This document shows positions 37,703 through 42,090 of a DNA stretch of 64,000 nucleotides, in pieces. Under the pieces are notes generated by a model. That model worked only from the letters and a program-made list of their open reading frames with translations, did not search any database and had not been told where the DNA came from. Both the position numbers and the translations under genes were made by a program. The first letter of the stretch is position 1. Each line of letters opens with the position of its first letter. The stretch is from positions 233,336 through 297,335 of the forward strand of contig RDXX01000011.1 in NCBI GenBank assembly GCA_004292955.1, read 5' to 3'. The DNA comes from Oscillatoriales cyanobacterium (lineage in GTDB: Bacteria > Cyanobacteriota > Cyanobacteriia > Cyanobacteriales > Microcoleaceae).

Positions 37703-38326
37703 GTGACAGCTACTATAATCATACCAAAAAATGCCGACAAAAAATTAGATCCAGAATCACAGTCAAAATTAGTAAACATAGCAGAAACTCAGCCAAAATC
37801 TGCTTCCCAGAAAGTCATATCTCTAGAAAAAATTTTAGTCAGACCTCGTGATAAAATGGAGTGGGTTGACGGCAACTTAGTAGAGAAAACAGGAATGACA
37901 TTCAAACACGGTCTCGCTCAAGTTAATCTAGCTACTGACTGGAGAAATTACAAAAATTCCAGCGGACAGGGAAGAGAAGTTATTACCGAAATACTTTGCT
38001 ACACTGGCAAAAATGGCCTCCGTCCCGATGTCGCTTACATCACTCCTGAACTTTTGCCACAATCGGGGAATTTTACATGATTTTCCCAAAGCTTCCCACT
38101 CATTGCAGAAATTGCTTCTCCTGAAGATAGCGGCGAAGAGTTATTTGCAAAAGCTCAAGAATATTTGGAATCGGGATGTTTAGAAGTTTGGTTGCTCTTT
38201 CCTGAAGCTAGATTAATATTTGTGAATGCCGGGGAACGCTGGCTGTTGTTTAATGCAGATGAAGTTGTTAACACTCAAAGGGTACTTACAGGTTTTAGGG
38301 TAGCTGTCAACGAACTACTCATTTAA
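37703..38326 (+). pseudogene. Uma2/DUF820-family putative nuclease interrupted by one in-frame TGA
   Basis: ORF 37703-38080, then the same frame continues FSQSFPLIAEIASPEDSGEELFAKAQEYLESGCLEVWLLFPEARLIFVNAGERW... to TAA at 38324-38326; TGA at 38078-38080. Confidence 0.82.
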
Positions 38327-38530
38327 GAAACTTAAATTGTTTTGCTAAATATTCAGATTTTATTGAAATTAATGATTGCTTAATCTCTCTCTTCTCCTCC
38401 ACTGCACCCTCTGCCCCCTCTACCATGCGGTTCATTCATAAAAATCTTGGTAAAATTTTAGCAAAAATGTCCTCAAAGTTTGTTAAGCTGTTCTAGCAGT
38501 TTTTTTTGACTTGTAGTCACCATCACAGTA

Positions 38531-40051
38531 ATGAGTCAGCAGGCAACCCTATTCCAGTACAAACCACTACACAAGCCAAACCAACTGATTTGCGGAACTG
38601 GTCAAACCGCTGTAGTGACTGGATGGACTGTAAAGCAAGCGATCGCCAAACACCTTCACCCCCATGAGTTTGCTGTGATTGGACAGTTGTACAGTTCAAC
38701 TCGTGGAATTAGCTTTCTGATTCGGAATCTTTTATTCAATCCCCATGTTCGCTTTTTAGTAATCATGAACGCTACAAAAGAAGACCTCAATGCTGGTGGA
38801 TGTAAGTGCCTGCTGGACTTCTTCCGTAATGGGTTTACAGAAGGAACCAGTGATACCGGACGCAAATGTTGGGTGATTAAATCTCCCATTACTGGGTATA
38901 TTGATATTGAAATTCCAGCTAGTGCTTTGGAACAATTACGACAATCGATAGAGGAACCTGTAGAAGCAAAATCCATTTCTGAAGCTGTAGCCTCTGTCAA
39001 GTCTTACTCACAACAGAACATACTTGAACCCTGGGGTAATTACTTAGAATTTCCTATCTCTGAAATCGTTCCTACTATTCAACCTGGACCGCGTTACGGC
39101 CATCGGATAGAAGGAACAACTATTGCAGAAACTTGGGTTAAAATTATTCATCGCATCAAAACAACAGGTACAATTCGACCGACTGGCTACGATGGCAAAT
39201 GGCAAGAATTAATTGATTTAATAGCTGTGGTGAAAAATGAGCCACCAGGCTTTTATTTCCCCGAACCAAATTATCTGCCCATTGACCGTCCTTTTGTTCA
39301 AGAATACACTTCACAAATATTAGATGATTCAGTGAAACGAGAAGGTGTTAAATACACTTATGGGCAGCGTCTTCGTTCTTGGTTTAATGGACGCGACCAG
39401 ATTGAACAAGTTATTAATAAATTAATAGGTGAGATTGACGCTGCTAGTGCAGTTATGTCGCTGTGGGATGTAGCCGATCACGATTCAGGTGGCAGTCCAT
39501 GCCTTAACCATATCTGGCTAAGAGTTGTGGATAACGAACTGTCAATGACTGCTACTTTCCGCAGTAACGATATGTTTAGCGCCTGGCCTGCTAACGCTAT
39601 AGGATTGCGAAAATTGCAAGAACACATTCGAGACGCGATCGCCGATCGATCGGAGTACGATCTCAAGATGGGTCCACTGATTACCATTAGTCAGAGTGCT
39701 CATATCTACGATGATACTTTCGATTCAGTTGACCGGATTATCAACCAGCACTATCAAAAAATAGTTGATGCAGAACGTAGACGTTATTTCGATCCAAGTT
39801 ATTCTGATTGCGATTCAGTGGGAAACTTCATCATCAAATTGGAGGATAAAACAATAGTTGTTTCCCAAACAACTCCTGGTAGTGGTGAAATTACCAAGCA
39901 TTATAGTGGCAGAGATCCTCTCAAGCTATTACGAGAAATTTGTGCTAATTCTCCGGCAATACAGCCTGAACATTCAGGTTACTTAGGGCTAGAAATCCAG
40001 AAGGCTTTTGGCTGCATTGCAACTGGCAAAAAATATATTCAGGATCAATAA
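38531..40051 (+). CDS. Thymidylate-synthase-like protein with N-terminal DUF4346-like region
   Basis: SLWDVADHDSGGSPCLNHIWLRVVDNELSMTATFRSNDMFSAWPANAIGLRKLQEHI resembles the ThyA catalytic Cys and RSxD...N region; N-terminus WVIKSPITGYIDIEIPASALEQL. Confidence 0.72.
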   Translation: MSQQATLFQYKPLHKPNQLICGTGQTAVVTGWTVKQAIAKHLHPHEFAVIGQLYSSTRGISFLIRNLLFNPHVRFLVIMNATKEDLNAGGCKCLLDFFRNGFTEGTSDTGRKCWVIKSPITGYIDIEIPASALEQLRQSIEEPVEAKSISEAVASVKSYSQQNILEPWGNYLEFPISEIVPTIQPGPRYGHRIEGTTIAETWVKIIHRIKTTGTIRPTGYDGKWQELIDLIAVVKNEPPGFYFPEPNYLPIDRPFVQEYTSQILDDSVKREGVKYTYGQRLRSWFNGRDQIEQVINKLIGEIDAASAVMSLWDVADHDSGGSPCLNHIWLRVVDNELSMTATFRSNDMFSAWPANAIGLRKLQEHIRDAIADRSEYDLKMGPLITISQSAHIYDDTFDSVDRIINQHYQKIVDAERRRYFDPSYSDCDSVGNFIIKLEDKTIVVSQTTPGSGEITKHYSGRDPLKLLREICANSPAIQPEHSGYLGLEIQKAFGCIATGKKYIQDQ

Positions 40052-40089
40052 ATCTAAGCGTCGTAAAGTTAAAGCATAGGAAATAGTTT

Positions 40090-40959
40090 ATGTCGGTTCT
40101 AAGCGAGTGGGATATTATCAATGAGCTAGGTAGAGGGATATTTATTTATCCTTTTAAAGGGAGAGAACATAGCATCAGAGGTTGCTGTTTACGCCTAACG
40201 GCAAGTGAATATGCTTATACATTTAACATAGATCAACAGACTCAACAGAAACAAACATTGCTTTTAAAAGATCGACAGGATAATAAACTTATTAAAATTC
40301 CAAGCCGAAAAACAGCTATAATATGGACTAATGAGTCAGTATTTGTTAACAATTATTTATGTGGAGTAATTCATTCACAAGTAAAATTAGTGTCACAGGG
40401 AATAGGACATCTTGGAACAAGAGTTAATCCTAATTATGGAGGTGTGATGGCTATAGCTCTTCATAATTTATCAGACAACGATATACAGATTAAAGTAGGT
40501 GATACTATTGCATATTTAAGAATTCATAGGTTGAGTTCAAAATCTTCTTTTTCTTCGGCATATAGAGACGATCCTGGTAAGCTTCATGATGCTATTCCTG
40601 AAGACTATCCAACACCGCCGGAACTTAGAAGCTGGTTAAACGATTCACAAAATCTGTGGAGAAAAGGAGATAAAAATGATATTTTAAAAGCGTTAGAGCA
40701 ATCGTCTGAATATAAAAAAGCCAAGGATGAGCTTAAACAGAAATCTATTCGCTACCGTTTAGTTTTTAAGTATTTGCCACAGTGGGAACCGATGGTTTGG
40801 GCTACGATTGTCGCGGCATTAGCAGCAATTGGGGGAGCAATTGGGACATGGGTAGCAGTTTTGAAACCTTCTTCACCACCTTCTTTTGATCCAAAACCAA
40901 TCATCACACCAAAGACACAAATAGCACCCACCCCTAAAGCAACCTCTGTTCCAAAATAA
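40090..40959 (+). CDS. dCTP-deaminase/dUTPase-fold protein with C-terminal TM helix, predicted catalytically degenerate
   Basis: N-terminal LSEWDIINELGRGIFIYPF and VNPNYGGVMAIALHNLSDNDIQIKVGDTIAYLRI follow the DCD pattern; canonical catalytic residues not seen; TM MVWATIVAALAAIGGAIGTWVAVL and Pro-rich tail. Confidence 0.65.
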   Translation: MSVLSEWDIINELGRGIFIYPFKGREHSIRGCCLRLTASEYAYTFNIDQQTQQKQTLLLKDRQDNKLIKIPSRKTAIIWTNESVFVNNYLCGVIHSQVKLVSQGIGHLGTRVNPNYGGVMAIALHNLSDNDIQIKVGDTIAYLRIHRLSSKSSFSSAYRDDPGKLHDAIPEDYPTPPELRSWLNDSQNLWRKGDKNDILKALEQSSEYKKAKDELKQKSIRYRLVFKYLPQWEPMVWATIVAALAAIGGAIGTWVAVLKPSSPPSFDPKPIITPKTQIAPTPKATSVPK

Positions 40960-40984
40960 TACTGTTGAGAAAGCGTAAAAATCA

Positions 40985-41968
40985 ATGAACAAAGTATATA
41001 TATCTGGTGCTTTAACAGGAATTGAGAAACCAGCAGAAGTCAAGAGTTTCTATGAAGCCATTGGTCTGCTTTGCCAAGAAATAGGTTTTCAAGCGTATGT
41101 TCCACATATGTATACCGATCCCATCAATAACCCTGACATTAGTCCTAGCCAAGTATTTGAGAGAGACAAACATCAAGTTAGTACATCAGATTTAGTCATT
41201 GCTTACCTTGGCTCCTTCTCTTTTGGTGTGGGAATGGAGCTAGCTTATGCTGAAATGAATAATATTCCTATTGTGATTATTTATGAAAAAGATAAAGTTA
41301 TATCAAGATTTCCACTGGGTATCCCTACAGTAATTGCTGAAGTTCAGTTTCAGACTTATGAAGATGCTTTGAACCAACTTAAAAACGTTTTGGAACAGAA
41401 AAAAATACAGCAGCTTATGAATAAAACCTATCAAAGACCAAATTGGGATGAATACTTTTTGATGTTGGCAAAATTGGCCGCAACGCGATCGACTTGTCTG
41501 GCATTTCCCGTCGGCGCGGTAATCGCTAAAAACAGGCAAGTTTTAGCTACGGGTTACAACGGTTCCCCCTCAGGTTCGGTACACTGCACGGCTCAAGGCT
41601 TCTGCTATCCGGGTTTGAGCAGTTGCGATGCTAGCAAAACTTTGCCGTCGCGGGCGGTTCACGCTGAAGCAAATGCGATCGCCACTGCTGCCAAACACGG
41701 CATATCTACGGCTGGAGCTAGCATTTATGTGACTTTAGAACCCTGCATTTATTGTTTGAAATTAATTATTTCCGCCGGCATTCGCGAAGTATTTTACGAA
41801 ACTGTTTTTAACAGCGGAGAAAAGGCGGCCTTGAGAGATTCTTTTATAGCCGATGGTATTGTTGAATTCAAACAAATTAAGCTATCTGAAAGTACAGCAA
41901 AAAGATCGGCTTCATTTCTGCTGAATCCTACATCTGTTCCAAAAGACGATCGACCATTCGGTTCGTAG
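40985..41968 (+). CDS. Nucleoside 2-deoxyribosyltransferase-like domain fused to dCMP deaminase
   Basis: N-domain VYISGALTG...SDLVIAYLGSFSFGVGMELAYAEMNNIPI; C-domain with intact HAEANA and PCIYC deaminase motifs. Confidence 0.82.
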   Translation: MNKVYISGALTGIEKPAEVKSFYEAIGLLCQEIGFQAYVPHMYTDPINNPDISPSQVFERDKHQVSTSDLVIAYLGSFSFGVGMELAYAEMNNIPIVIIYEKDKVISRFPLGIPTVIAEVQFQTYEDALNQLKNVLEQKKIQQLMNKTYQRPNWDEYFLMLAKLAATRSTCLAFPVGAVIAKNRQVLATGYNGSPSGSVHCTAQGFCYPGLSSCDASKTLPSRAVHAEANAIATAAKHGISTAGASIYVTLEPCIYCLKLIISAGIREVFYETVFNSGEKAALRDSFIADGIVEFKQIKLSESTAKRSASFLLNPTSVPKDDRPFGS

Positions 41969-42018
41969 TCAGGACTTTAGTCCGCATTCAAGAAGGACTA
42001 AAGTCCTCACTACAAACC
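41960..42018. repeat. Palindromic intergenic repeat, copy 2
   Basis: GGTTCGTAGTCAGGACTTTAGTCC...GGACTAAAGTCCTCACTACAAACC. Confidence 0.85.
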
Positions 42019-42028
42019 TTCTCTCTTG

Positions 42029-42087
42029 GGTTGGTAGTGAGGACTTCAGTCCGCATTAAAGAAGGACTAAAGTCCTCACTACAAACC
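42029..42087. repeat. Palindromic intergenic repeat, copy 3 (tandem with copy 2)
   Basis: GGTTGGTAGTGAGGACTTCAGTCC...GGACTAAAGTCCTCACTACAAACC. Confidence 0.85.
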
Positions 42088-42090
42088 TTT

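Follow-up and report, generated by a model that had tools for sequence, protein, structure and literature searches.

Organization of the locus

The window, meaning the whole stretch of 64,000 nucleotides analyzed here, comes from an Oscillatoriales cyanobacterium and carries a gene that starts with ATG, encodes 327 residues and has zero internal stops (Table 1). A complete dCMP deaminase core, at approximately residues 151-320, lies in frame with an N-terminal domain of residues 1-140, referred to below as the N-domain. Pfam gave the window protein a PF00383 dCMP/cytidine deaminase match at residues 153-272 (E 3e-25) and a PF05014 Nuc_deoxyrib_tr match at residues 18-105 (E 3e-05), the latter at 24.6 bits and under the 28.8-bit cutoff; PF05014 was also matched by 33 of the 34 aligned N-domain homologs, with a best E of 1e-10. 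The in-frame two-domain fusion proposed in an earlier note on this DNA is borne out by the intact reading frame, the PF00383 match and the homologs matching PF05014, and the motifs it had named, GVGMELAYA with Glu85, HAE and PCxxC, are all present. The bifunctional architecture, in which a single chain has two domains predicted to be catalytic, is certain. Both halves showed purifying selection in the one usable close pair, the window gene and L073 (dN 0.009 and dS 0.24 for the N-domain; dN 0.007 and dS 0.13 for the deaminase half). The full-length model was poor (pLDDT 73.9, pTM 0.49) and too weak for interdomain geometry. Neither the fusion nor DUF4346 was the subject of any paper found in a literature search.

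Table 1 Features of the fusion gene and its operon in the window
Feature	Coordinates	Strand	Evidence or remark
Segment replaced relative to sister genome G017	38299..41432	+	Flanks mostly 81-94% identical; segment about 67% identical or unmatched
ThyA-like thymidylate synthase, MtrA-like N-part, C-terminal PterinBD-DUF4346	38531..40051	+	
dCTP-deaminase-fold protein, one C-terminal transmembrane helix	40090..40959	+	Ala123 at catalytic Glu position
Fusion gene, DNPH1/MilB-like domain + dCMP deaminase, 327 aa	40985..41968	+	ORF analysis, Pfam, homolog search
N-domain (1-140), predicted 2'-deoxynucleoside 5'-monophosphate N-hydrolase	40985..41404	+	Conservation, profile match to DNPH1/MilB/BcmB, pLDDT 91.9, Foldseek
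N-domain residues	Y5 40997, T11 41015, H41 41105, D61 41165, S79 41219, E85 41237, S107 41303		
Linker/junction	41405..41434	+	Holds right edge of swapped cassette (identity to related alleles from 41433)
In-frame internal ATG (Met144)	41417..41419	+	Not conserved across fusions
dCMP deaminase domain, from RPNWDEYF on	41435..41968	+	HAE 226-228 (41660), PCxxC 253-257

Two genes precede the fusion in the operon. The ThyA-like thymidylate synthase (TS) is the sole thymidylate synthase found in the window genome, and by eye it keeps the Asn of dUMP-type enzymes. The second encodes a protein of the dCTP deaminase fold (DCD-like). The catalytic residue of dCTP deaminase is Glu138, and the DCD-like proteins lack it, with Ala at position 123 in at least 90% of class A and Ser in class B (by eye). 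A C-terminal transmembrane helix was present in 28 of 28 copies scanned. Because most loci have the DCD-like gene immediately before the N-domain gene, the two proteins may work together. At the left edge of the cassette, a Uma2-like gene (37703-38326) is apparently broken into several frames; its copy in G006 is a 203-aa open reading frame. Directly downstream of the fusion gene, at 41968-42090, a repeat unit (GGACTTTAGTCC/AGGACTAAAGTCC) occurs twice.

Predicted activities of the two domains

The zinc motifs HAE and PCxxC within a PF00383 fold mark the C-domain as a dCMP deaminase, and its best Foldseek matches were the dCMP deaminases of S. mutans, T4, human and cyanophage (S-TIM5). It shares about 35% identity with the S. 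mutans enzyme, and the fusion differs from all of these in its extra N-terminal hydrolase domain. On the basis of sequence and operon context, the C-domain is predicted to deaminate dCMP.

The AlphaFold model of the N-domain was confident, and its top Foldseek matches were DNPH1, MilB and BcmB (E 1.7e-07 and TM 0.76-0.84 for the leading ones). An N-domain profile retrieved RCL/DNPH1, MilB/BcmB and BlsM in the PDB; single-sequence matches were weak, and identity to characterized enzymes was 16-19% over structural alignments. The earlier note had described the domain as deoxyribosyltransferase-like. Nucleoside 2'-deoxyribosyltransferases (PF05014, such as the Chroococcidiopsis enzyme 8pqs) do share the superfamily fold and the catalytic Glu, but with lower fold similarity (TM about 0.6), and they carry an Asp at the 5'-OH site, six residues ahead of the catalytic Glu, where the N-domain has Ser79. 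The description thus stands for fold and catalytic Glu, while the domain itself is nearer to the 5'-monophosphate N-hydrolases.

Human DNPH1 relies on the triad Y24/D80/E104 and on phosphate serines S98/S128' (PMC10603095, PMC10483697). By motif and HMM alignment, with no superposed coordinates, the triad corresponds to Y5/D61/E85, invariant in 34 of 34 homologs, and the serines to S79 (at least 90% of homologs) and S107 (34 of 34). Agreement at the triad and at both phosphate serines points to a 5'-monophosphate as substrate, and the N-domain is likely a catalytically active DNPH1-type 5'-monophosphate N-hydrolase rather than a deoxyribosyltransferase. Besides the fold, it shares with DNPH1/RCL the Tyr for 2'-deoxy substrates and differs in sequence (about 19% identity over the structural alignment), in its fusion to a dCMP deaminase, in its bacterial operon and in the lid and hydroxymethyl-contact residue Arg30, which the motif alignment replaces with Thr11. 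From the CMP N-glycosidases MilB, BcmB and BlsM, which have the same fold and phosphate-site Ser and whose MilB relatives also adjoin ThyA-type genes, it is set apart by genomic setting and by two positions diagnostic of the hydroxymethyl-CMP N-glycosidase, Phe17 and Arg/Lys23, occupied here by Tyr5 and Thr11. The change F17Y is reported to switch MilB from CMP to dCMP (PMC4081090), and a 2'-deoxy substrate is therefore predicted from Tyr5. Since the Arg/Lys that would contact a 5-hydroxymethyl group is Thr11, kept as Thr in at least 90% of homologs, plain pyrimidine deoxynucleoside monophosphates, dUMP or dCMP, would be preferred over hmdUMP. Given a DNPH1/MilB-like fold with every catalytic residue, the suggested sequence of dCMP deamination and glycosidic bond cleavage by one polypeptide is plausible as chemistry, and catalysis remains a prediction.

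An alternative role in nucleotide sanitation deserves mention, in which one chain would run the human DCTD-then-DNPH1 route, from 5-hydroxymethyl-dCMP to hmdUMP and on to hydroxymethyluracil and deoxyribose 5-phosphate. Human DCTD acts on 5hmdCMP as a deaminase in vitro, and DNPH1 disposes of 5hmdUMP (PMC10305735). Those MilB homologs that are linked to ThyA/CH homologs are moreover hydroxymethyl-specific, and the N-domain has a ThyA-like TS linked to it. Against this stand Thr11 in place of the hydroxymethyl-recognizing residue (MilB R23, DNPH1 R30) and the dUMP-type Asn of the TS; in addition, we know of no source of hmdC in these cells. We regard this route as unlikely.

The N-domain could also be a noncatalytic, nucleotide-binding regulator of the deaminase. 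Bacterial dCMP deaminases are commonly allosteric, the S. mutans enzyme structure was solved with dTTP, and fusions to regulatory domains are common in proteins. However, the full catalytic triad and the phosphate serines are kept, stand-alone genes included, and a purely regulatory function seems very unlikely to us.

Recurrence of the fusion

Among 62 genomes searched within the family, the same fusion occurs in the same frame in G021, G022 (L073), G007 (L077) and G008 (L075), and split over two contigs in G011 (L074/L113), and a GTDB-wide scan added one from an Aphanothece MAG (L088). The architecture search that the earlier note had called for was thus productive in six further cyanobacterial genomes, and a frameshift or assembly artifact is ruled out by the same frame in seven genomes. 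In all other cyanobacterial homologs the N-domain has a gene to itself (about 140-170 aa). This gene usually clusters with those for the ThyA-like TS, the DCD-like membrane protein and dCMP deaminase, and the order varies among TS-DCD-N-deaminase, TS-deaminase-DCD-N and TS-DCD-deaminase-N. Adjacency by chance was rejected, as TS, deaminase and N-domain genes are neighbors in most of 41 N-domain loci. Domain-wise alignments were used because MAFFT of mixed fused and unfused rows misplaced the C-end of the N-domain. In Nostoc sp. CHAB 5836 (L105 5587-6381), an in-frame deletion joins the DCD-like protein directly to the DNPH1-like domain, and a Chloroflexi homolog (L112 6001-7038) has a different C-terminal extension, helix-turn-helix-like by eye, with no TS nearby.

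A phage origin of the fusion was rejected: no phage record covered at least 80% of the fusion protein, no phage or plasmid record matched the N-domain, and viral contigs gave two distant matches. The module might nevertheless act against phages, with the pseudo-DCD membrane protein sensing a nucleotide change upon infection, the DNPH1-like enzyme depleting dNMPs and the deaminase fusion being a by-product of the site. Its patchy distribution (12 of 386 genomes phylum-wide), variable gene order and horizontal exchange would fit, as would two divergent DCD-like classes that both bear C-terminal transmembrane helices and a PADLOC dCTPase match on the deaminase part. The site, however, is the housekeeping thymidylate locus without recognized defense neighbors, and the defense matches reflect generic deaminase similarity. 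The anti-phage dCTP deaminase NF041025 likewise has two domains, the C-terminal one a deaminase of the same superfamily; its N-domain is unrelated in sequence, and the match scored 88.6 bits against a cutoff of 400, on the deaminase part only. A defense role is in our view very unlikely.

The internal ATG

The earlier note had placed an in-frame ATG at 41417 and considered it a possible functional start. The codon is indeed in frame, as Met144, and its position is native-like, since the unfused deaminase allele of G017 starts MNLEEERPTWDEYF. Met144 is restricted to Microcoleus-group fusions; the Kamptonema, USR001 and Aphanothece fusions have Glu or Val there (junctions QIENKPHHRP in the first two and LPVNKHSPRP in Aphanothece), and inspection by eye showed nothing resembling a Shine-Dalgarno motif ahead of 41417. 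Three of the seven fusions lack the codon, which leaves a conserved two-product design without support, and we rejected it. The ATG is probably a relic of a native start that came in at the recombination edge.

Two exchangeable alleles of the thymidylate locus

Two exchangeable alleles lie upstream of dCMP deaminase, either thyX-dut, found in most relatives, or a ThyA-like TS with or without the membrane pseudo-dCTP-deaminase and the DNPH1-like gene. ThyX genomes have the order thyX-dut-dCMP deaminase, with all three genes within 2.1 kb in G006. ThyX occurs in 44 of the 62 family genomes and PF00303 TS in 17, mostly where ThyX is missing; across the phylum the two are nearly complementary (TS 50/386, ThyX 332/386). 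All 12 N-domain genomes carry TS (hypergeometric 6e-12 among 386, phylogeny ignored). TS-allele genomes of the family have no ThyX and, by a search for the DUT family (PF00692), no full-length dUTPase, and in G000 the sole PF00692 and PF22769 matches are the DCD-like neighbor. Because TS-only relatives such as G017, G024 and G038 are without both dut and the N-domain, the latter is not an obligatory dUTPase substitute. Within thyX-dut alleles, G030 and G035 (L019, L011) hold the DCD-like membrane protein with the DNPH1-like gene absent. Additionally, thyX at this locus frequently consists of two separate PF02511 pieces within long open frames of about 480-710 aa (G012, G013, G016, G018, G029, G046-G049 and others), suggesting inteins in ThyX.

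Comparison of neighboring genomes located the exchange. Between G008 (fused) and G006 (thyX-dut), both flanks are mostly 92-97% identical. The replaced segment measures approximately 3.0 kb in the former and 1.5 kb in the latter, and on the right it ends no more than four codons from the conserved deaminase RPxWDEYF; between the window and G017 the right edge is the same, at 41433. On the right, the swapped segment ends at the point where the two domains are joined. The earlier note had not remarked that the fused gene marks one border of an operon allele that was replaced. The deaminase halves of fused genes cluster with unfused deaminases of their neighbors (L075 with G006, L074 with G013, the window with G017), while in the tree the N-domains of the Microcoleus-group fusions cluster together. 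The deaminase and hydrolase trees thus disagree, as exchange would predict; both are weak around the Aphanothece fusion. G053 (L104) has the unfused order between the same flanking ABC and HD genes, and a 3' remnant of dut with motif V, MKIAQMVIAPVLRVEIQEVQQLSDTKRSDNGFGSTG (L031 8355-8503), sits between its DNPH1-like N-domain gene and dCMP deaminase. This remnant is a fossil of cassette entry into thyX-dut.

Proposed function

We modestly favor a bifunctional dCMP deaminase/pyrimidine dNMP N-hydrolase that controls the dCMP/dUMP pool and was born of cassette replacement. In this reading the fusion arose as a TS-pseudoDCD-hydrolase cassette took the place of thyX and dut in an operon of thyX, dut and dCMP deaminase, with recombination ending where the deaminase core begins. 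The C-domain would convert dCMP to dUMP, and the N-domain would cut the N-glycosidic bond of a pyrimidine 2'-deoxynucleoside 5'-monophosphate, most likely dUMP and/or dCMP, releasing the free base and 2-deoxyribose 5-phosphate. Tethering would place a dUMP drain beside the dUMP supply, in a setting where the TS of the same operon is the only recognized thymidylate synthase and a full-length DUT-family dUTPase is not recognizable. As a counterpoint, a dUMP hydrolase beside the only TS would compete with that enzyme for dUMP. A more elaborate scenario, which we consider quite unlikely, has the dUTPase given up along with ThyX, surplus dUMP hydrolyzed at source by the deaminase-tied DNPH1-like domain so that DNA stays free of uracil, the dead membrane dCTP-deaminase acting as sensor and the allele moving as a cassette.

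On a single chain the fusion would naturally join two steps for which human cells use DCTD and DNPH1; DNPH1 is a target for PARP-inhibitor sensitization. The in-place swap exposed two complete routes to dTMP, thyX-dut and a ThyA-like TS with new partners, and raises the question of how dUTP is kept in check in cyanobacteria that have the TS allele and no DUT-family dUTPase. As the swappable cassette takes the place of the customary genes for thymidylate synthase and dUTPase, uracil in DNA building blocks appears to be managed differently in these few filamentous cyanobacteria.
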